NCBI GenBank assembly: GCA_017507855.1
Contig: JAFWAE010000026.1
Coordinates: forward strand, 62,001 to 126,000
Origin: Clostridia bacterium
GTDB lineage: Bacteria; Bacillota; Clostridia; Oscillospirales; RGIG5554
Direction: 5' to 3'
Length of the DNA stretch: 64,000 bases
Below are positions 12,267 to 57,211 of this stretch, in pieces. Under the pieces are notes generated by a model. The model was given only the letters and a program-made list of their open reading frames with translations. It had not been told where the DNA came from and searched no databases. The position numbers and the translations under genes are program-made. Positions within the stretch are counted from its first letter, which is position 1. Every line of letters begins with the position of its first letter.

Positions 12267-12911
12267 TCAGTTTCCTTTGCGGGCTTGCCGACGGTCAGAC
12301 AGAAAGCCGAAAAGAAGTTGGGCCACCCCTACGGCCAGCCAGGTACCCAGGATCACCAGGGCGCAAAGCAGGAAAAAGGAGGCGGGAAGCAGGGTGATGA
12401 TGGGATCGGACGAGGGAGAAAAGACCCACAGATCATTGGAGAAAAACAGCTTGTGAAACAGGGTGAAGGCAGGCTGAAAAGCCACCAGGGCCACCGCTGC
12501 GATCCCTGCGGAAAGTCCGGTCAGCGCCGCGCCACAGCCCCTCAGCGCCCGATTCAGAAGCTGTTTTTTGGACAGCCACAGGCATAAAGGAATGAGAAGC
12601 AGGACAGAAACGCCCCCTGTGGCGTAGACGCCGTTAAAAAGCCTTTTGCAATCGGCAAAATGACGGGCACCCCCTTCGCTGAAGGGAAGAGAAGGCAGGG
12701 AAAACGGGGCGTCGGAGAAGGGGGAAAGGTAGTCCATCACAGCTCGATAATTGGCCAAGGCATCCGTTTCGCTGCACAGGGCCGCCGCGGAGCTTTGGCG
12801 GAAAGAGAACTCCCACAGCCCGTCGAACACGTGCACGAAGGCCAGGGCGGATGCGGTAGCCACAGACAGGGAAAGAGCCATCAAGGCCAAAACGGAAAGC
12901 CAACGCTTCAT
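12267..12911 (-). CDS. DUF1461 / TIGR01906-type integral membrane protein
   Basis: This 214-residue protein has an N-terminal hydrophobic segment, an extracytoplasmic loop with YRAVMDYLSPF and HFADCKRLF, then three further membrane segments and a loop with FFSNDLWVFSPSSDPII. That pattern fits the DUF1461 family of small Gram-positive membrane proteins, whose function is unknown. The ATG at 12911 is 10 bases after AAGGAG; the GTG three codons upstream sits too close to the same site. It is part of the leftward operon between another membrane protein and the CPBP protease. Confidence 0.75.
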   Translation of the reverse strand: MKRWLSVLALMALSLSVATASALAFVHVFDGLWEFSFRQSSAAALCSETDALANYRAVMDYLSPFSDAPFSLPSLPFSEGGARHFADCKRLFNGVYATGGVSVLLLIPLCLWLSKKQLLNRALRGCGAALTGLSAGIAAVALVAFQPAFTLFHKLFFSNDLWVFSPSSDPIITLLPASFFLLCALVILGTWLAVGVAQLLFGFLSDRRQARKGN

Positions 12912-12916
12912 GGGTA

Positions 12917-13531
12917 TCACGCTCCTTCCTGAGTCAGGCTTTTTTCAGGGACGCGGGGGACTGCCGTTTCCAGGGAAAACTCTGCCAGAAAAAGGAGAAT
13001 GAGGAGGTTTTCCCAAATGAAAAGGGTATTGTCAAAAAACTCGATCCGAAAGATCAGCCCCGTAAGGCAGAAAACGGAGAAGGCCGAGCTGAGCAGGCCG
13101 AAGATCCGCTGGCAAACGTTGCGGGCAAAAACGGCCATAAAGCCGAAGGAAAGCATCAGGGCGGGGATCAGTACCTCGGCGATGCGGTTGTGTAGGTCTG
13201 TGATCAGTCTGCTTCGGTCGCTGTTGCACGGAAGCCATCCGCACCCCAGCACGCAAAGAACGATGAGGATGTATAGAAGCTTTTGGGCCGGCTTCATTTG
13301 TATTTTTGGAAGATGCAGGCAAATGAACACGGCAATGGCAGAGATCGCGGCGGCAAAAAGCACCGACGTCCAAGGATAAAACCCTACGTAGACGGAAACG
13401 GTCAGCCCCGGATCCATGGGCAGTTGCTTTTCCCGGCAGGCAAAGACCACGGCTACCGCGACGCAAAGGGCATAAAGGGCCACGGACCCAAACAAAAAAC
13501 GCACGCTTTTTCGGGGCAAAAGGCAGAGCAT
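12917..13531 (-). CDS. Multi-span membrane protein of unknown function
   Basis: I do not recognise this 204-residue protein. It has about six hydrophobic segments, near residues 11-30, 47-70, 82-102, 118-136, 141-160 and 167-187, with a conserved-looking extracellular NSDRSRLITDLHNRIAE loop between the third and fourth. The arrangement is loosely like DUF998 or Frag1/DRAM-type proteins, but I cannot place it. The ATG at 13531 has a weak, distant AAAGGA. It lies 36 bases downstream of deoD, and its stop is 5 bases before the DUF1461 start, so the membrane genes are surely co-expressed. Confidence 0.6.
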   Translation of the reverse strand: MLCLLPRKSVRFLFGSVALYALCVAVAVVFACREKQLPMDPGLTVSVYVGFYPWTSVLFAAAISAIAVFICLHLPKIQMKPAQKLLYILIVLCVLGCGWLPCNSDRSRLITDLHNRIAEVLIPALMLSFGFMAVFARNVCQRIFGLLSSAFSVFCLTGLIFRIEFFDNTLFIWENLLILLFLAEFSLETAVPRVPEKSLTQEGA

Positions 13532-14381: not shown

Positions 14382-14496
14382 ACCTTTTCCTCAAAAAATG
14401 GAGAGGCTGTGCGTCGAAAAATGCCACACGGAAAGAATGCAAAGGAAAATTTGCAAAGAAAAGCTGAGAGAAAACGGAGAAAATGCAAAAAAATGC

Positions 14497-14525
14497 TTGA
14501 AAAATTTGCAGGATACAGCTATAAT
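14497..14525 (+). promoter_or_regulatory. Promoter for the FGGY kinase gene
   Basis: TTGAAA and a perfect TATAAT are 17 bases apart. Several TTTGCA/TGCAAA words surround it and may be binding half-sites for the LacI-type regulator encoded downstream. Confidence 0.8.
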
Positions 14526-14575: not shown

Positions 14576-16033
14576 ATGAAGTATTTATTTGGCTTGGACA
14601 TTGGCACTACCGGCTGCAAGGCGATCCTGTTTGACGAAAACGGGAAGATCCATGGGGATCATTACATCGAGTATGCACTGCACGTCATCTCGGACAAGGA
14701 GATCGAGCAGAGCCCCAAGGATTGGTGGAACCATTCCGTCAGCTGTATGAAGGGGTGCCTCAAGCAGGCAGGCATCGACCCTGCGGACGTGGCGGGCGTT
14801 TCCGTTTCTTCCCAGGGCATCTCCTTTGTGCCCATGACCGAGGACGGCACGGAGCTGGGCGACGCCATTTCCTGGTTGGATTCCCGCGCTGAAGCCGAGA
14901 CCGAGGAGATCATGGCCCTCAAAGGTGCCGACTGGATGTATCAGCGCACCGGCAAGCGCACCGGCGCGCAGTATATGCTGCCCAAGTTAATGTGGGTGAA
15001 GAAGAATCTGCCCGACGTGTATGCCAAAACCTATAAGTTCCTTATGGCGCACGACTACATCATCTACAAGCTGTGTGGCGCCTTCGTGACCGACCGCACC
15101 ATGGCCGGTGCCACCATGGTCTATGACCTGCACACCGAGGAATGGAGCGAGGAGATCTGTGACGCCTTCGGCATTGATTGCAACAAGATGCCTGCCCTGG
15201 CCTGGGCGGGCGAGCTGGCCGGCCAATTGACCGAGGCCGCTGCCGCGGAGATCGGTCTGACCACGGCCTGCAAGGTGGCTGTGGGTGCGCAGGACCAAAA
15301 GGCCTCTGCCGTGGGCGCCCGTTTGGAGCCCGGCGTGGCCACCCTGTCCCTGGGTACGGCCGGCGCTATGGAGCTGAGCTGCGACCATCCTGTGTTTGAC
15401 GATGCCCGCATGCGCATCCCCTGCTTCTCCTATACCGCGCCCGGCACCTATACCCTGGAAACGGTGATTTCCACCTGCGGTGCTGCGCAGAAATGGTTTA
15501 AAAACACAGTGTTGCCCTACATGAGCTACCGCGAAATGGACGAGATGATCGAAAAGACCCCCGTGGGTAGTAGCGGCGTCATGTTTTATCCCCATTTGAC
15601 CGGCGCCAGCACGCCCATCGGGCGCGACGAGGTGCGCGGTGCTTTTTCCGGTCTGTCCCTGAACGCCGGCGTAGGCGACTTGGCCCGCTCCGTGCAGGAG
15701 GGTCTGGCCTTCCAGCTTCGCCACAACGTGGATGTGGCCGAGGAAATGGGGACGAAAGTCAACGAGATCCACGTCTTCGGCGGCGGCAGCAAGAGCCGCA
15801 TCTGGTGTCATATCATTGCCGGCTGCACCGGACGCAAGGTCGTTTCGTATGCCTGCCCCGAGATCGCTTTGGTGGGCGCGGCGATGCTGGCAGCCAAAGC
15901 CTGCGGAATGGATACGACAGATTTTGCCATGTGCGAAATGATGCCCGTGCGCGAGTTTGAAGCCACGGAAGAGGAAAAAGCCTTGTACAATGATATTTAC
16001 GCCAAATACCGTGCTTTTGAAGACAGACTGTAA
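14576..16033 (+). CDS. FGGY-family carbohydrate kinase (xylulokinase-like)
   Basis: This 485-residue ATP-dependent sugar kinase phosphorylates a keto-sugar or polyol. It has the N-terminal phosphate loop GLDIGTTGCKA, the ISWLDSRA segment, the catalytic Asp in VGAQDQKASAVG, and the C-terminal FGGY signature region HVFGGGSKSRIWCHI. Its closest general type is xylulokinase, but FGGY substrate cannot be read from motifs. The ATG at 14576 is chosen because the protein should begin MKYLFGLDIG; AGGAAAGGA lies slightly far upstream. A LacI regulator follows after 34 bases, then a fucose-isomerase-like enzyme, which would supply a ketose to this kinase. No aldolase or epimerase is in the locus. Confidence 0.87.
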   Translation: MKYLFGLDIGTTGCKAILFDENGKIHGDHYIEYALHVISDKEIEQSPKDWWNHSVSCMKGCLKQAGIDPADVAGVSVSSQGISFVPMTEDGTELGDAISWLDSRAEAETEEIMALKGADWMYQRTGKRTGAQYMLPKLMWVKKNLPDVYAKTYKFLMAHDYIIYKLCGAFVTDRTMAGATMVYDLHTEEWSEEICDAFGIDCNKMPALAWAGELAGQLTEAAAAEIGLTTACKVAVGAQDQKASAVGARLEPGVATLSLGTAGAMELSCDHPVFDDARMRIPCFSYTAPGTYTLETVISTCGAAQKWFKNTVLPYMSYREMDEMIEKTPVGSSGVMFYPHLTGASTPIGRDEVRGAFSGLSLNAGVGDLARSVQEGLAFQLRHNVDVAEEMGTKVNEIHVFGGGSKSRIWCHIIAGCTGRKVVSYACPEIALVGAAMLAAKACGMDTTDFAMCEMMPVREFEATEEEKALYNDIYAKYRAFEDRL

Positions 16034-16067
16034 CTTCGCCTTCTTTATATGAAAGGAGCGTGTTGAT

Positions 16068-17063
16068 GTGGGCCATAATAACACCACACTAAAGGAGATC
16101 GCCGCTTTGGCAAACGTGCATATCTCCACGGTGTCCAGGGCTCTCAGCGGAAGCCCGCTGGTCAAGCCGGACACGGCCGAGCGGGTGCGCGAGGTGGCCA
16201 AACGCCTGGAATACCGCCGCGAAATGCTGCTTAAAGGGGTGGTATCCGGGAAGACCTTTACCGTGGGTGTTCTGATTCCGGATATGTCCAACAGCTTCTA
16301 CGCCGAGATCTGTGGCGGTGTGATGGAGTATCTGCAACGAAACGGTTATTCCGTGCTGCTGGGATGCACCAATTTTTCCGCGAACGAGGAACGGGAATTC
16401 GTGGACCTATTTATTGCCAAAAAGGTGGAGGGGATCGTTTCCGTTTCGGCGCGCTATTCCGACATTCCCCATATTATGCCCGCCGTGTTTATTGAGGCGG
16501 TCCCCGAATGCAAGGAGATCACGGTCGTGTCCATCGACAATTTCGGCGCGGCGGCTCGCATGGCCGAGCATTTGGCCGAAATGGGGCATCGCAGAATCGG
16601 CTTTATCGGCGATACCAAGACCACCATCCAGCGCTTCAGGGGCTTTTCCGCCGGTTTGGAGCGCTTTGGCCTGATCTTGGATCCCAAACTGACGGTCATT
16701 GATGAAGAGCGCATGGAAAAGGGCGGCTACAACAAGATGATGCAGCTGTTGCAACGCCCCGTGCGCCCTACGGCGGTATTTTGTGTCAACGACTATTTGG
16801 CCATTGGCGCTTTGCAGGCTATCAGCGAGGCGGGATTGCGGGTGCCCGAGGATATCTCCGTTGTCGGCTTTGACGGCATTCAGTCTTCCGCTTACGTGCA
16901 GCCTCCCCTGACCACCATCGTACAGCCCAAGGAAAAAATGGGGCAAATGGGGGCCGAGTTGCTGCTAAAGGAGATCTGCGGCGAGCGCGCCCCCGGAGGA
17001 CGCGTGGTCCTGCCCTTCTCCCTGGCTGAGCGAAAGTCGGCGGCGCCTCCCCGCTCAGAGTAA
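16068..17063 (+). CDS. LacI-family transcriptional regulator
   Basis: This 331-residue repressor has a LacI helix-turn-helix (TLKEIAALANVHISTVSRAL, residues about 7-26) with hinge region, then a periplasmic-binding-protein-like sensor (about 60-325), including GVLIPDMSNSFYAEI and VVGFDGI. The GTG at 16068 follows AAAGGAG by 9 bases; an overlapping ATG at 16066 is in another frame. It sits between the sugar kinase and the isomerase and very likely controls both promoters, with the kinase's substrate or its precursor as inducer. That link is from position only. Confidence 0.92.
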   Translation: MGHNNTTLKEIAALANVHISTVSRALSGSPLVKPDTAERVREVAKRLEYRREMLLKGVVSGKTFTVGVLIPDMSNSFYAEICGGVMEYLQRNGYSVLLGCTNFSANEEREFVDLFIAKKVEGIVSVSARYSDIPHIMPAVFIEAVPECKEITVVSIDNFGAAARMAEHLAEMGHRRIGFIGDTKTTIQRFRGFSAGLERFGLILDPKLTVIDEERMEKGGYNKMMQLLQRPVRPTAVFCVNDYLAIGALQAISEAGLRVPEDISVVGFDGIQSSAYVQPPLTTIVQPKEKMGQMGAELLLKEICGERAPGGRVVLPFSLAERKSAAPPRSE

Positions 17064-17090
17064 GTTTTTCATTTGTATTTTTGCATTTTC

Positions 17091-17119
17091 TTGCGTTTTG
17101 GCACCCCTTCCGTCATAAT
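17091..17119 (+). promoter_or_regulatory. Promoter for the isomerase-led gene run
   Basis: TTGCGT and CATAAT are 17 bases apart. A TTTGCATTTTC word precedes it, similar to the words near the kinase promoter, so common LacI-type control is possible. Confidence 0.65.
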
Positions 17120-17171
17120 AAAAACAATGGAAATTTTCCCGTAAAAAATAAAAAAATAAGGAGATCTACTT

Positions 17172-18497
17172 ATGCCTAAGATCGGATTGCTGACCCTCTG
17201 CCACACTGACTATATTTGTCAGGCCATTAACAACCAGCGCGACAATATCGCCAACGCCCTGCGCGACAAAGGCGTGGACGTGGTATACAGCGACACGCTT
17301 TGCGACGACTTTGCGAAGGCATCTGCTGAAGCCCGCCGCCTGATCAAAGAGGACGTGGAAGGCGTGATCTTTTTCCTGGGCTCCTGGATCGAGTGCCCCA
17401 CGGCCATGGCCGCTGTGCGCGAGATGGAGCATTTGCCCATGTGTCTGTTCGGTTTCCCCATGTACGAGGAAAACGGCCGTTTGGAGAGCACCGGTGCCTA
17501 CGTATCCTACGCTATGTTTAAGGGTGTAATGGACCGTGTGGGCTATGCCTACAAGGGCGTGCTGGGCAACACCGACGATCCCGCCGTGCACGAGCAGTTG
17601 CTGTCCTTCTGCGTGGCGGCTTCCGCTTCCGAGCGCATGAAGCGTACCCGTATCGGCCTGGTGGGCTACACCTCCATGAGCATTTACACCGGCACCTTTG
17701 ACCACGTGCTGCTGCGCGCCATCGTGGGTCCCGAGGTAGAGCAGATGGACTCCTATACCCTCATCAACATGGCCGAGGCTGTGTCCGATGCCGAGGTGGA
17801 CGAAGCCATCGACTGGTTGAAGGCTCGCTCCCGCATCCGCACCGAGGTGACCTCCGAGAGCCTGCGCAAGGCCATCCGCCTGTACGTGGCCATGAAGAAG
17901 ACTTGCAACGACAAGGCTTTGGATGCGTTCAATATCAAGTGCCAGTACGAATTCTCCAAGGAGTACAAGGCCGTTCCCTGCGTGCCTGCCTCCATGCTGG
18001 CTGACAGCGGTGTGGTCTCTTCCTGTGAGGGCGACATGATGCTCACCGTTTCCATGACGCTGATGCATTATCTTTCCGGCGCTCCCGTTTCCTACGGTGA
18101 CTCCATGAACAATAACGGCAACGTGGTGAAATTCTCCTCCTGCGGCTTCAATCCCTTCTCCTTCGGCACGAAAGAGACCTGCGAAGTGCGCAACTTCATG
18201 CCCCATCCCGGCTTTACCGGCATCCAGACCAGCTTCGTGCTGCGTCCCGGCCGTGTGACGGTGATGCGCCTGGTGGAGGATGTGGGAAGCTACCACATCG
18301 TGTATATGACCGGCGAAGGCCTGGAGACCGAGCTGCGTCAGGGCTATATGCCTGCGCTGGACGTTCGTTTGGACGGCGACGTGCAGAAATTCCTGGAGAA
18401 CCTGTCCGGTCAGCATTACGCCATTGTGTACGGCGACATTTCCGACCGCATTGAAGACTACGCCCGCATTATGGGCTTTGATGCCATCCGCATCTGA
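17172..18497 (+). CDS. L-fucose/D-arabinose isomerase-like protein
   Basis: This 441-residue enzyme belongs to the L-fucose/L-arabinose isomerase superfamily, which interconverts an aldose and its ketose with Mn2+. Features seen are the N-terminal Rossmann-like half, CVPASMLADSGVVSSCEGD with the candidate metal-binding Glu, PVSYGDSMN with a candidate Asp, and a late GQHYAIVYGD with the His. It is shorter than classical FucI (about 590 residues), as in the uncharacterised fucose-isomerase-like group. The ATG at 17172 follows AAGGAG. It would feed the FGGY kinase upstream; the sugar is not known. Confidence 0.8.
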   Translation: MPKIGLLTLCHTDYICQAINNQRDNIANALRDKGVDVVYSDTLCDDFAKASAEARRLIKEDVEGVIFFLGSWIECPTAMAAVREMEHLPMCLFGFPMYEENGRLESTGAYVSYAMFKGVMDRVGYAYKGVLGNTDDPAVHEQLLSFCVAASASERMKRTRIGLVGYTSMSIYTGTFDHVLLRAIVGPEVEQMDSYTLINMAEAVSDAEVDEAIDWLKARSRIRTEVTSESLRKAIRLYVAMKKTCNDKALDAFNIKCQYEFSKEYKAVPCVPASMLADSGVVSSCEGDMMLTVSMTLMHYLSGAPVSYGDSMNNNGNVVKFSSCGFNPFSFGTKETCEVRNFMPHPGFTGIQTSFVLRPGRVTVMRLVEDVGSYHIVYMTGEGLETELRQGYMPALDVRLDGDVQKFLENLSGQHYAIVYGDISDRIEDYARIMGFDAIRI

Positions 18498-18517
18498 CAC
18501 AACAAAGGAGAAACGGT

Positions 18518-20137
18518 ATGAAACAGAGCAAGCACGCCATTCGCGCAGTTGCGCTTTTGCTGGCTATCTGTTTGGCGGCGGCAGGATTTTACGGGTGCAC
18601 GGCTGCATCCGCAAAGGAGGAAGAAACTGTGTACGACTACAAAAATGTGAAGACGGCCGGCGGTGCCAACGATGGGTCTACCGACATTTCCTCTCTACTG
18701 GTTGAGCTGGACGCTCAAATCAAGCCGGGTGAAGCCCTCTATTTCCCCGCAGGCACCTATTTGGTTGCTTCAGATATGGAGATCGGCTCGCCCGTGGTGT
18801 TGGCGGCCAACGTGAAGCTGCAGGTGGAAGCCGGCGCTCACGCGGTGTTCAACGGCCCTGTGGAGTCCGGCCAACAGCATATCTTCACCGGCGAAGGCAC
18901 GGTGCGCCTGAATTCTCAGGAAAGCTGGGGATATCCCAAGTGGTTCGGGGTGAAAAACAACGGCCGCGAAGCAGATGATGAAGCCTTTCAGAAAGCGGTG
19001 GACAGCTGCCGTATGCTTCGCCTGCCCAACAAGGCCTATCGGCTTTCCGGAATTGTGTTTTCCCATCCCATTACGGTAGAAGGGATCGGCTCCAGCCGCA
19101 TCACGATCCAGGCGGAGGCGACGACGAAGAACTTGTTCACCTTTCGCAGTAGCGACGTCAGCCTGAAGGGACTTTGCATTAAAATGGGCAAGGCGGGCAA
19201 GGACGCCCATTGCTTCTATTTTGACACCGATGCGGTGAGCATGGAAAACATTTCCCTCAAGCAAGTGTACGTGGATGACGGTTACGTGTCCTTTACGGAT
19301 GCGGGAAGCGGCAAACACACAGTCAGCAAGGTGAATTTGACGGCGGTGGACTTCCGCTCTGCCCGTGATACCTGCGTCATTATCCGAGACTTCGCTTCCG
19401 ATCTGGTGTTCACTGAGGTGGTCAATGCCCGTCGCGAAAACAAAAGCGCCGGAGTCTACTGTAACATGCCCGGCTTCATTATTGAAAACGTGGACGGATT
19501 TTTGGGCGAGCATATGGATACCAACGGCGAAGCCAATGCCGTGGGAGCCAACAGCTACGAGCATGATCCCGAGTGGCCCTCCCGCAATTTGGACGGTCAC
19601 GGCATTATTTTCCGCAACTGCAAAAACGTGAAGATCATCCGCACCCTGATGGAATACGTAGGTGCTTCCGGCTTCATTTTCGAAAACTGTTCCAAGCTGA
19701 CGTTGGAAAATTGCGAAGCCTACACCGTGCACCGCGACGGTTTCCGTTTCGTCAACTGCACCGATTCCAATTTCTACGTCACCAAGGCCTGGGGCAACTG
19801 CAACAATAACGTAGACGGCAACAACATCACCATGATCGGTTGCTCCGACATGAACTTTTACAGTGTGCAAACCGGAAACACCAAAAAAGGTGCTCATTCC
19901 GTGTACGTGCAGGATTGCAAGAACATTTTGATCGACACGCTGATGATGGACGGCATGCCAACCGCTGACGTAGGCTTTGTGGATGCTGGTGGAAACGAGA
20001 ATGTGCTGATCAACAATATGACCTGTACCAGCATGAACCTGACCTATACCCTTACGGGGAAGGGCGTGAAGCTGCGCAACGTGTTTTTGCCCAGCAATAC
20101 CTACATTGCAGAGGTAACGGAGGCGGGCACACGATGA
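18518..20137 (+). CDS. Surface lipoprotein with right-handed beta-helix (pectate-lyase-like)
   Basis: This 539-residue secreted protein has a signal peptide ending in AAGFYGC, so C27 is the probable lipid anchor although Phe at -3 is unusual for a lipobox. An N-terminal capping module with LYFPAGTYLV is followed by a second one beginning KWFGVKNNG, then a long parallel beta-helix with repeated FRNCKNVKII and FENCSKLTLENC type rungs. Folds of this kind bind or cleave polysaccharides (pectate lyase, GH28, tailspike). No catalytic residues can be assigned. The stop overlaps the next gene's ATG, and that gene is a paralogue. It probably works on the glycan that yields the locus's sugar. Confidence 0.75.
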   Translation: MKQSKHAIRAVALLLAICLAAAGFYGCTAASAKEEETVYDYKNVKTAGGANDGSTDISSLLVELDAQIKPGEALYFPAGTYLVASDMEIGSPVVLAANVKLQVEAGAHAVFNGPVESGQQHIFTGEGTVRLNSQESWGYPKWFGVKNNGREADDEAFQKAVDSCRMLRLPNKAYRLSGIVFSHPITVEGIGSSRITIQAEATTKNLFTFRSSDVSLKGLCIKMGKAGKDAHCFYFDTDAVSMENISLKQVYVDDGYVSFTDAGSGKHTVSKVNLTAVDFRSARDTCVIIRDFASDLVFTEVVNARRENKSAGVYCNMPGFIIENVDGFLGEHMDTNGEANAVGANSYEHDPEWPSRNLDGHGIIFRNCKNVKIIRTLMEYVGASGFIFENCSKLTLENCEAYTVHRDGFRFVNCTDSNFYVTKAWGNCNNNVDGNNITMIGCSDMNFYSVQTGNTKKGAHSVYVQDCKNILIDTLMMDGMPTADVGFVDAGGNENVLINNMTCTSMNLTYTLTGKGVKLRNVFLPSNTYIAEVTEAGTR

Positions 20138-21747
20138 AGGGATTGTTGAAAAAGATCCTCAGTGTGGGATTGGCTCTGATGCTGAGTGCAGGGCTGACCG
20201 CAGGCTTTACCGCTTGTACGGAAACCGAGGAGAAAGGGCTGAACGCATTTATGGAAGGCGATCTGAACATCATGGATTTTGGCGCCAAGGGAGACGGTGT
20301 TACCAACGACCTAAAGGCCCTGGAAAACGGTCTTAAAGCGGCCAAGGAGCAGGGGGCACGTCTGTATTTCCCTGCCGGTACGTATCGCCTTTCGGATAAC
20401 TGTGTAGTTCCCGATACCGTGACCTTGGTATTGGGAAAAGGGGCCAAACTCAGCGTGGATGCAGAATGCATTTTGAATATCAACAGCACGGTGCACGCCG
20501 ACGAGCGTCAGCAGATCGTCACGGGCGAGGGAGTCCTTCGCTTAGGCGGGTACCTGACGGCCAATCCCTTCTGGTTTGGAGCCAAGGGTGATGGCGTGAC
20601 CGACGATACCGAGGCCTTTAAAAAGGCTTGGAAGGCCTGTGCGCAGATCGACCTGCCCTATACGGAGAACGGCTATTTGCTCAGTGAAATAGAGACTTTC
20701 TCCAATATGGCATTGGTGGGCATTCCCGAAGGGGACAAAAAGCCCGTGCTGAAGGCTGCCTCTGACTGCGAGATCCTGTTTCATACGAGAACGGGGCAGG
20801 GCAATTACAAGATCAGTAACGTGCAGGTGGATATGTCTGCCGCGCCCGACGGTTCTACGGTGTTCCATTACAATACTGCCAGCGGATGGATCCAGGATAT
20901 TTACGTGGATAACTGCGTGTTTACGGATGCGTATCACGTGTTTACCGACTCCCGCGTGGGCAAGGATAACAACTCCTTGATGTACGTGCATCTGGAAGAT
21001 ATCCTGTGCAAGGATTCTCGAAACTCCACTTTTAAGATTTTGGACTTTGAGGGCTTCATTTTCATGAAGCGCTTCACCATTGACAATTCCAATTCCTTTA
21101 CCAAGCATAAGTTGACGGACGGCTTTACGGCCGTGTGGATCGACGAGGTGCGCGGCGATATTCTGGAAGAGATGACGATTATCGGCGGCAATTCCGGTTA
21201 TGCAAACGAGATTGGCTTCTCCTATAAGAACATCGCTTCCGTTTGGTGGGATCGGGTCACGGTCAAAAATTGCGGCGGCCCTGCCATTCGCTTGCAAAAC
21301 TACAATATCCTGGTTTCCCTGATTGACGTAACGGTGGAAAATTGCGGCGGCGGCGTACACACCGCAGGCTCCGGCTGGATGCAGTTGGAGCGGGTACACG
21401 TGACCGGCCGTGCCGGTCAGGAGGGAGCCAAAGAGAATACGCACGGGATCGTCATCGATAGCGGCAACATGGTGCAGCTTCACGACGTGTCCAGCTGTAA
21501 CAATACGGGCAGCGGTATTTACGTGCGTTCCAGCAAACGCATCAGCATCAATAAGGCCGAACTGTGCAATAACGGCGGCTACGGCTATCAGGATTCCGCA
21601 AGTGCTCAAACCATCCTGGCTAACGCTACGGTGACGGGAAACAAAGCGGGGCAGATCAAAAATGCCACCGCCCTTTCCGTGATCGAAAACGTGATCCTGG
21701 AGCAGGGAGGGCAGCCCCAATCTTTTACGGGCGCGGGAAATCGCTGA
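20134..21747 (+). CDS. Surface lipoprotein with right-handed beta-helix, paralogue of preceding gene
   Basis: This 537-residue protein shares order and motifs with the one at 18518. The signal peptide ends in TAGFTAC (C28). It holds two copies of the tailspike/pectate-lyase module hallmark, IMDFGAKGDGVTND near 45-60 and FWFGAKGDGVTDDTEAF near 145-165, then beta-helix rungs such as VTVENCGGGVHTAGSG and CNNTGSGIYVRSSKRISI. The start overlaps the upstream stop (ATGA), so synthesis is coupled. Likely role: binding or degradation of a surface or host polysaccharide. A substrate or catalytic site cannot be named. Confidence 0.75.
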   Translation: MKGLLKKILSVGLALMLSAGLTAGFTACTETEEKGLNAFMEGDLNIMDFGAKGDGVTNDLKALENGLKAAKEQGARLYFPAGTYRLSDNCVVPDTVTLVLGKGAKLSVDAECILNINSTVHADERQQIVTGEGVLRLGGYLTANPFWFGAKGDGVTDDTEAFKKAWKACAQIDLPYTENGYLLSEIETFSNMALVGIPEGDKKPVLKAASDCEILFHTRTGQGNYKISNVQVDMSAAPDGSTVFHYNTASGWIQDIYVDNCVFTDAYHVFTDSRVGKDNNSLMYVHLEDILCKDSRNSTFKILDFEGFIFMKRFTIDNSNSFTKHKLTDGFTAVWIDEVRGDILEEMTIIGGNSGYANEIGFSYKNIASVWWDRVTVKNCGGPAIRLQNYNILVSLIDVTVENCGGGVHTAGSGWMQLERVHVTGRAGQEGAKENTHGIVIDSGNMVQLHDVSSCNNTGSGIYVRSSKRISINKAELCNNGGYGYQDSASAQTILANATVTGNKAGQIKNATALSVIENVILEQGGQPQSFTGAGNR

Positions 21748-21771: not shown

Positions 21772-22293
21772 TTGTATAAAAACATCAGAACTCTCACATA
21801 TGCCGCAGCCATCGCTGCGGCTTATGTGGTCTTGACGGCTGTTTTTGCCCCCATTGGCTTCGGCGCGGTACAGTTTCGCGTTTCCGAAGCTTTGACCGTA
21901 CTGCCCTTCTTTTTGCCGGCTGCGGTCCCGGGCCTTTTTGCGGGATGCCTGGTCTCCAACCTGCTTTTTTCCACTCCGCTGGATGCGGTGGTGGGATCTT
22001 TGACTACGTTGGCGGCGGCCTTTTGGGTCAGCCGCATGAAGCACCGTTGGCTGGCACCGCTCCCCACGGCTCTGCTGAACGGCATTTTCGTAGGGGCTGT
22101 GATCACCTACACCTCCGCAGGGCTGACGGCGGCCTCCCTTCCCGTTTTTGCATGGACGGCCTGCACCGTGGCACTGGGAGAAGTGGGCGTGGGCTATTTG
22201 TTGGGTATGCCGCTTTTGCTGGGAGCCGCCAAATGGTTTGGCCGCATTCCGGAGAAAGGAGAAACTCATGGACGAAATGCACACCACAAGTGA
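21772..22293 (+). CDS. queT: QueT-type ECF transporter S component
   Basis: This 173-residue, six-segment membrane protein matches the QueT (DUF988) family, which captures a queuosine precursor for an energy-coupling-factor transporter. The FGAVQFRVSEALTVLPFF segment near residues 30-50 is the family hallmark. The TTG at 21772 is 8 bases after AAGGAG. No ATPase or T component is nearby, so it should share a housekeeping ECF module. The expected preQ1 riboswitch is not found; only 24 bases separate it from the lipoprotein gene. Its 3' end overlaps mutS2 by 26 bases. Confidence 0.82.
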   Translation: MYKNIRTLTYAAAIAAAYVVLTAVFAPIGFGAVQFRVSEALTVLPFFLPAAVPGLFAGCLVSNLLFSTPLDAVVGSLTTLAAAFWVSRMKHRWLAPLPTALLNGIFVGAVITYTSAGLTAASLPVFAWTACTVALGEVGVGYLLGMPLLLGAAKWFGRIPEKGETHGRNAHHK

Positions 22294-57159: not shown

Positions 57160-57211
57160 AAGGTGGAATGAGTATTTTTGCATTTTTTTGCCGAAAGGAA
57201 GGTCATTGCAG

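Follow-up and report, generated by a model that had tools for sequence, protein, structure and literature searches.

Glycan-active proteins built on the beta-helix are common, and those with solved structures are, to our knowledge, single chains or homotrimers. The mannuronan C5-epimerases AlgE4 and AlgE6 are single-chain enzymes, while GH55 (glycoside hydrolase family 55) proteins carry two beta-helices per chain. In Bacteroidetes, SusC and SusD genes recur as a pair, with many carbohydrate loci in the same genome carrying one. Among trimeric beta-helix glycosidases, the Sf6 tailspike has its active site in a cleft between two subunits, and TSP3 of CBA120 has its two catalytic acids on adjacent subunits (PMC6517402). 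Here, we analyzed a 64,000-nucleotide (nt) stretch of a Clostridia bacterium genome (GCA_017507855.1, contig JAFWAE010000026.1; the window), in which genes for a sugar kinase, a LacI-family repressor and an isomerase are followed by two beta-helix lipoprotein genes, A (18518-20137, + strand) and B (20134-21747, + strand). We use A and B for these two genes and for their relatives. We find that A and B are sister families occurring as fixed partners. We see about an even chance that the locus combines a LacI-controlled sugar regulon with an A:B heteromeric carbohydrate-active enzyme having an inter-chain active site.

Both window proteins belong to the Pfam family PF12708 (Pect-lyase_RHGA_epim), scoring 31.2 (A) and 80.3 (B) bits against a gathering cut-off of 27. 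This family matched 35 stretches within 18 open frames of the genome. Using whole-genome profile searches, we counted nine domains of each family in the 1.55-Mb genome, and every one has a partner. Seven sets are adjacent A-B pairs (two on contig C11, three on C25, and those on C45 and C8), and two are fusions in opposite orders, B-A on C51 and A-B on C56. The sheep-omasum metagenome-assembled genome (MAG) RGIG6098 (G394) contains 12 A and 14 B domains as scored, or 13 of each; the difference is due to a piece of 133 residues at a contig end (L092), which has the higher score as B (85.5 against 79.0) but starts like the A of another locus, L234. It carries a tandem array in the order B A B B A B A B (L090) and two A-B fusions. 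Two A and one B were found in BRZ_CP bin94 (G395), and one of each in the water-buffalo rumen genome RGIG8085 (G396). In a scan of the genome contigs collection, which covers only records with one short motif, near-full-length matches came from these three MAGs only, among the best 80 of 181. Three of 388 genomes of the order passed E 1e-20, namely this one together with G023 and G043, which match over the N-terminal part only; no full-length A or B relative was found in further genomes of the order. G023 and G043, from another family of the order, contain more distant tandem helix genes coding for 500-600 and 980-1250 residues (L237-L242).

A single branch, with support of 100/99, separated the 22 A from the 24 B domains in a tree of 46 helix domains; three of the 49 domains, shorter than 330 residues, were excluded from the tree and from the invariance counts below. 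On either side of this branch, the three A-B fusions group in a single clade, and the halves of the B-A fusion fall elsewhere. Thus, two separate fusion events, one for each order, are probable. The distances of A proteins correlated with those of their B partners over 17 unambiguous pairs (r=0.724; 0 of 20,000 permutations), a set that omits the L090 array (three A and five B, with ambiguous partners) and the unpartnered contig-end members. The correlation was 0.902 for the nine pairs of this genome (22 of 20,000 permutations), 0.742 for the 13 pairs left without fusions (1 of 20,000), and 0.509 for 12 pairs when one recent copy was also removed (7 of 20,000).

AlphaFold2 predicted a beta-helix for both proteins. 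The B model, built with 12 sequences, reached a predicted local distance difference test (pLDDT) score of 88.3 and a predicted template modelling (pTM) score of 0.85, and the A model, built with nine sequences, reached 87.8 and 0.84. The best structural match of both was the Sf6 tailspike (B: Z 36.9, root-mean-square deviation 2.2 over 347 residues; A: Z 35.9, 2.2 over 341). The AlgE epimerases, phi29 gp12 and CBA120 TSP3 came close behind. These matches run from about residue 100-140 to near the end, and the first 110 residues or so are barely covered. The models thus resemble the Sf6/TSP3-type inter-subunit glycosidases (Z 34-37), as predicted right-handed parallel beta-helices that superpose over about 340 residues at 2.1-2.4 Å. 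A and B differ from the tailspikes in being cellular lipoproteins, known from sequence and models, that form two different chains with 12-16% identity. The epimerases match at Z about 35, but with 13-14% identity. By sequence profile, B matches GH55 beta-1,3-glucanase (3eqn, 5m5z) best (E 3e-14); however, that match is confined to the short PF12708 motif, and the structural rank is low (Foldseek 33 and 42). The two-helix chain of GH55 is reminiscent of the A-B fusions.

Each family has two invariant aspartates. In A they are D261 and D334 (all 22 rows), and in B they are D272 and D317 (all 24 rows). D261 of A is aligned with D272 of B, so this position is common to both, whereas D334 (A) and D317 (B) are family-specific. 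The inter-subunit site of Sf6 and TSP3 (PMC6517402) may have its counterpart in these invariant acids. We propose that A and B form a heteromer with a composite active site shared between the chains, by analogy with the tailspikes. Aligning single chains to a natural A-B fusion (L095) appeared to put all of them on one half, as judged by the invariant columns.

The five open reading frames of the locus are all present on the + strand where the earlier note had placed them. The first (14576-16033, with 14564 as an alternative start) encodes an FGGY-family carbohydrate kinase (Pfam FGGY_N 219.7 bits, FGGY_C 105.4), the second (16068-17063) a LacI-family repressor (Pfam LacI and Peripla_BP_3), and the third (17172-18497) a ketose/aldose isomerase of the FucI/AraA superfamily. 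A gap of 20 nt separates the isomerase gene from A, and A and B overlap by 4 nt. A regular-expression check found a signal sequence and a lipobox-like cysteine at the N-termini of both A and B.

A candidate LacI-family operator, AGAAAATGCAAAAA, lies at 14478-14491 (+), 5 nt ahead of the -35 box of a sigma-70-like promoter before the kinase gene (TTGAAA-17-TATAAT, 14497-14525, +; 11 of 12 consensus matches). A second, exact and inverted copy (17078-17091, -) abuts the -35-like box of a promoter-like sequence before the isomerase gene (TTGCGT-17-CATAAT, 17091-17119, +), a pattern match that is absent from a stricter scan. The exact 14-mer occurs at only these two places in the window. Allowing up to one mismatch, we found three matches against 0.06 expected by chance. 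The third copy, with one mismatch, is at 57175-57188 (-). Apart from three overlapping loci of the same region, none of the other loci examined contained the 14-mer. When the two upstream regions were shuffled 500 times by a Markov model, 5 shuffles shared a word of that length. Promoter-like sites were no commoner across the region than chance predicts (4 against 4.6). With the exact 14-mer at both promoters, the locus is plausibly one LacI regulon transcribed as two units (kinase-lacI and isomerase-A-B), in which the repeated word would act as operator. The 20-nt gap and the common strand make A and B look co-expressed with the isomerase.

The kinase is nearest to xylulokinase, as it scored 353.7 bits against the XylB family TIGR01312, close to but below the cut-off of 380.25. 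The isomerase matched Pfam families marginally (Fucose_iso_N1 28.3 bits, cut-off 28; AraA_central 28.9, cut-off 24). We rejected the standard L-fucose isomerase FucI and the fucose pathway, since only the N1 domain of FucI exceeded its cut-off and TIGR01089 gave 27.9 bits against 850. The nearest named isomerase family is the sulfoquinovose isomerase SftI (NF048012, 140.8 bits), which is far under its cut-off of 700, and sulfoquinovose catabolism was rejected likewise. Judged by its sequence, the isomerase is a separate subfamily of about 440 residues in the FucI/AraA superfamily and not a standard fucose isomerase. None of its relatives in 394 genomes of the order exceeded 32% identity (range 19-32%), and none of eight pattern matches in the genome contigs collection was confirmed as a close relative. 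Relatives at 45-53% identity were found in six of 391 genomes of the class. Four residues, E286, D288, H415 and D422, are conserved throughout the seven near rows and in nearly all of 41 distant rows, which would be in keeping with an active isomerase.

In the six stretches read around these relatives in the class, an FGGY kinase (36-45% identity) is near the isomerase in five, and the sixth isomerase is near a contig end. Five of the six also have a creatininase-like gene near the isomerase or the kinase; one was called by Pfam, and the others by N-terminal resemblance to that one. These stretches (L270-L275) look like an unnamed sugar operon that has a creatininase-family amidohydrolase beside the FGGY kinase and the isomerase, and no helix genes. 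The stretch from a complete genome (L273) also encodes a solute-binding protein, GH38, URO-D, a PfkB kinase and a true FucI (Pfam), with two permease-like genes recognized by eye, and L270 includes a class II aldolase gene. A literature search over titles and abstract openings, with subscription papers mostly uncovered, returned no paper on a kinase-creatininase-isomerase operon or on an A/B-like pair, which is weak evidence of novelty for each.

Pfam and NCBIfam scans of the locus and its neighbours confirmed that no aldolase or ATP-binding cassette transporter gene lies within the cluster, as the earlier note had said. Its description of the sugar genes as a partial pathway is doubtful, considering that xylulokinase is the nearest kinase family and that two sugar-type permease pairs, with solute-binding genes beside them, are encoded elsewhere in this genome (C16 and C11). 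The product of xylulokinase needs no aldolase, and a pathway with a kinase nearest to that family may work without the "missing" aldolase. Contig C18 of this genome carries xylA-like and xylB-like genes (by eye; the kinase also by its FGGY match), so the window kinase is not the sole candidate for xylulose. In the scheme we propose, the kinase-lacI and isomerase-A-B units would make up a small LacI-controlled sugar-use regulon. The A:B heteromer of sister right-handed beta-helix proteins would most likely cleave or modify carbohydrate at a site formed where its chains meet, like that of the tailspikes of Sf6 and CBA120 (TSP3), and the local pair would trim or release glycan at the cell surface. 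A transporter encoded elsewhere would import the sugar, which would be isomerised to a ketose and then phosphorylated, with entry into the pentose phosphate pathway as its likeliest fate.

Several observations weigh against this scheme. The correlated divergence of A and B is explained equally well by duplication of the pair as a unit and does not imply contact; the fusions and the lack of any unpartnered member in this genome nevertheless favour a working partnership. The sugar genes and the pair are also found apart. Eight of the nine A/B sets here are without the kinase and isomerase genes (stretches read), and none of the six class stretches with the isomerase shows a helix gene (blastp and stretches read). 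The isomerase has no match in G394 and only 23% ones in G396. Some A/B loci (C45, L095) have only housekeeping neighbours, and a plain count places only five of 13 solute-binding hits, in three loci, beside helix genes. The pair may thus stand beside the kinase and isomerase by chance and serve another task, such as work on the cell's own envelope polymers, with the sugar genes forming an ordinary complete pathway. We consider this unlikely, as the genes share a strand, the 20-nt spacing and the identical 14-mer, and a second genome has A directly after the same isomerase subfamily. There, contig C73 of G395 (L236) shows the same order of FGGY kinase (41% identity), isomerase (51/47%) and A-type helix gene. 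That A is nearest to the C45 A (42%) and detectable over its first ~265 residues only, no B was detected in L236, and the kinase and isomerase frames are broken, so this linkage may be recruited, decaying or misassembled. The tight spacing, the repeated 14-mer and the gene order in G395 still support a local link. The earlier note had suggested that sugar genes and lipoproteins could form one compact glycan-use locus, a view it would itself abandon if the two were separated in relatives or expressed independently; they are separable, and a dedicated unit is not supported. The suggestion holds in part. The locus is plausibly one sugar regulon, other A/B copies also lie beside GH38, solute-binding, transketolase or LacI genes, and what the regulon places at the surface is one copy of a beta-helix module that is independent of it and consistently occurs in pairs.

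The nature of the pair itself admits other readings. A and B could be non-catalytic adhesins or surface binders, paired as one binding surface that keeps glycan or host/plant material at the cell. Most members are predicted lipoproteins or secreted proteins, and the pneumococcal adhesin PfbA is also among the fold matches (Z 31.6 and 29.8); fold likeness in itself shows no activity. No catalytic family matched A or B above its curated cut-off (the BT4146-type rhamnogalacturonidase family NF049898 gave 39.9 bits over 62 positions of B, against 500). However, one clade of pairs, seen in two genomes (C8 here and L092 in G394), is without signal peptides, and the aspartates are invariant within each family. 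This clade, together with the GH38 and solute-binding genes that follow the C8 pair, suits an enzyme better, and we regard the adhesin as rather unlikely. Tailspikes lead the fold matches, and the N-terminal motif of B is matched by tail families in PHROGs, which might suggest domesticated phage tailspikes. Such an origin is very improbable to us, given that one scan with one motif found no relative in viral contigs, that 50,697 phage records gave partial matches only (four records, at most 22% of the query), and that PF12708 occurs in cellular control genomes too.

Returning to the heteromeric enzyme, we think that the pair probably handles plant or other glycans as a two-subunit machine. If so, it would show plainly how an enzyme or receptor can be divided between two paralogous chains, with partners that are kept together and fused in both orders. 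More tentatively, and with doubt, we raise the possibility of an obligate two-chain enzyme with a split site, one family-specific aspartate per chain, kept in nine sets and recruited to various carbohydrate regulons inside and outside the cell. This would be a portable glycan-processing unit whose role in these gut Clostridia is comparable to that of the paired Bacteroidetes surface systems. The likeness to SusC/SusD is one of genomic logic only, as A and B are unrelated to those proteins, have no transporter partner, and lie near sugar genes at only some loci. A Pfam scan of the locus and its flanks, ten genes in all, found no SusC/SusD genes, and by this measure the locus is not a polysaccharide utilisation locus of the SusCD kind. 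The consistently paired helix module outside the window is a more surprising finding than the sugar locus itself, and the two aspartates with one operator offer a testable handle on glycan uptake by poorly known gut Clostridia.

The neighbours of A/B sets vary. At L230 of G394 (C57, 1763-6501), the transketolase C-terminal subunit, A, B and queT stand in a row; the A-B-queT order is that of the window, and the QueT proteins are 38% identical. Other sets have AraC and solute-binding genes (C11:47k), GH38 by Pfam and a ROK-like gene by eye (L232), GH127-like (L094) or GDSL (L233) genes by Pfam, LacI (L229), URO-D (C51), or a sugar-diacid-type regulator (C25:11k).

In the window, a QueT-family transporter gene (21772-22293, +; PF06177) starts 24 nt after B and is followed by mutS2. 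Upstream lie deoD (- strand) and, further on, lit (Pfam, NCBIfam). The Lit lipoprotein intramolecular transacylase gene (12267-12920, -; PF07314, 121 bits) is two genes from the lipoprotein locus, past deoD and one unassigned open reading frame. An Rfam scan of the window detected only a tRNA. Elsewhere in the genome, a cluster at C18:1-18000 (L084) contains a LacI-type gene (by eye), a helix lipoprotein of 1139 residues and three tandem solute-binding paralogues without adjacent permeases. It also has a class II fructose-bisphosphate-type aldolase and a FucI-C-type isomerase. Most of the 13 SBP_bac_1 hits of this genome are without an adjacent permease, and those that we read have ATTPATTP-like linkers.

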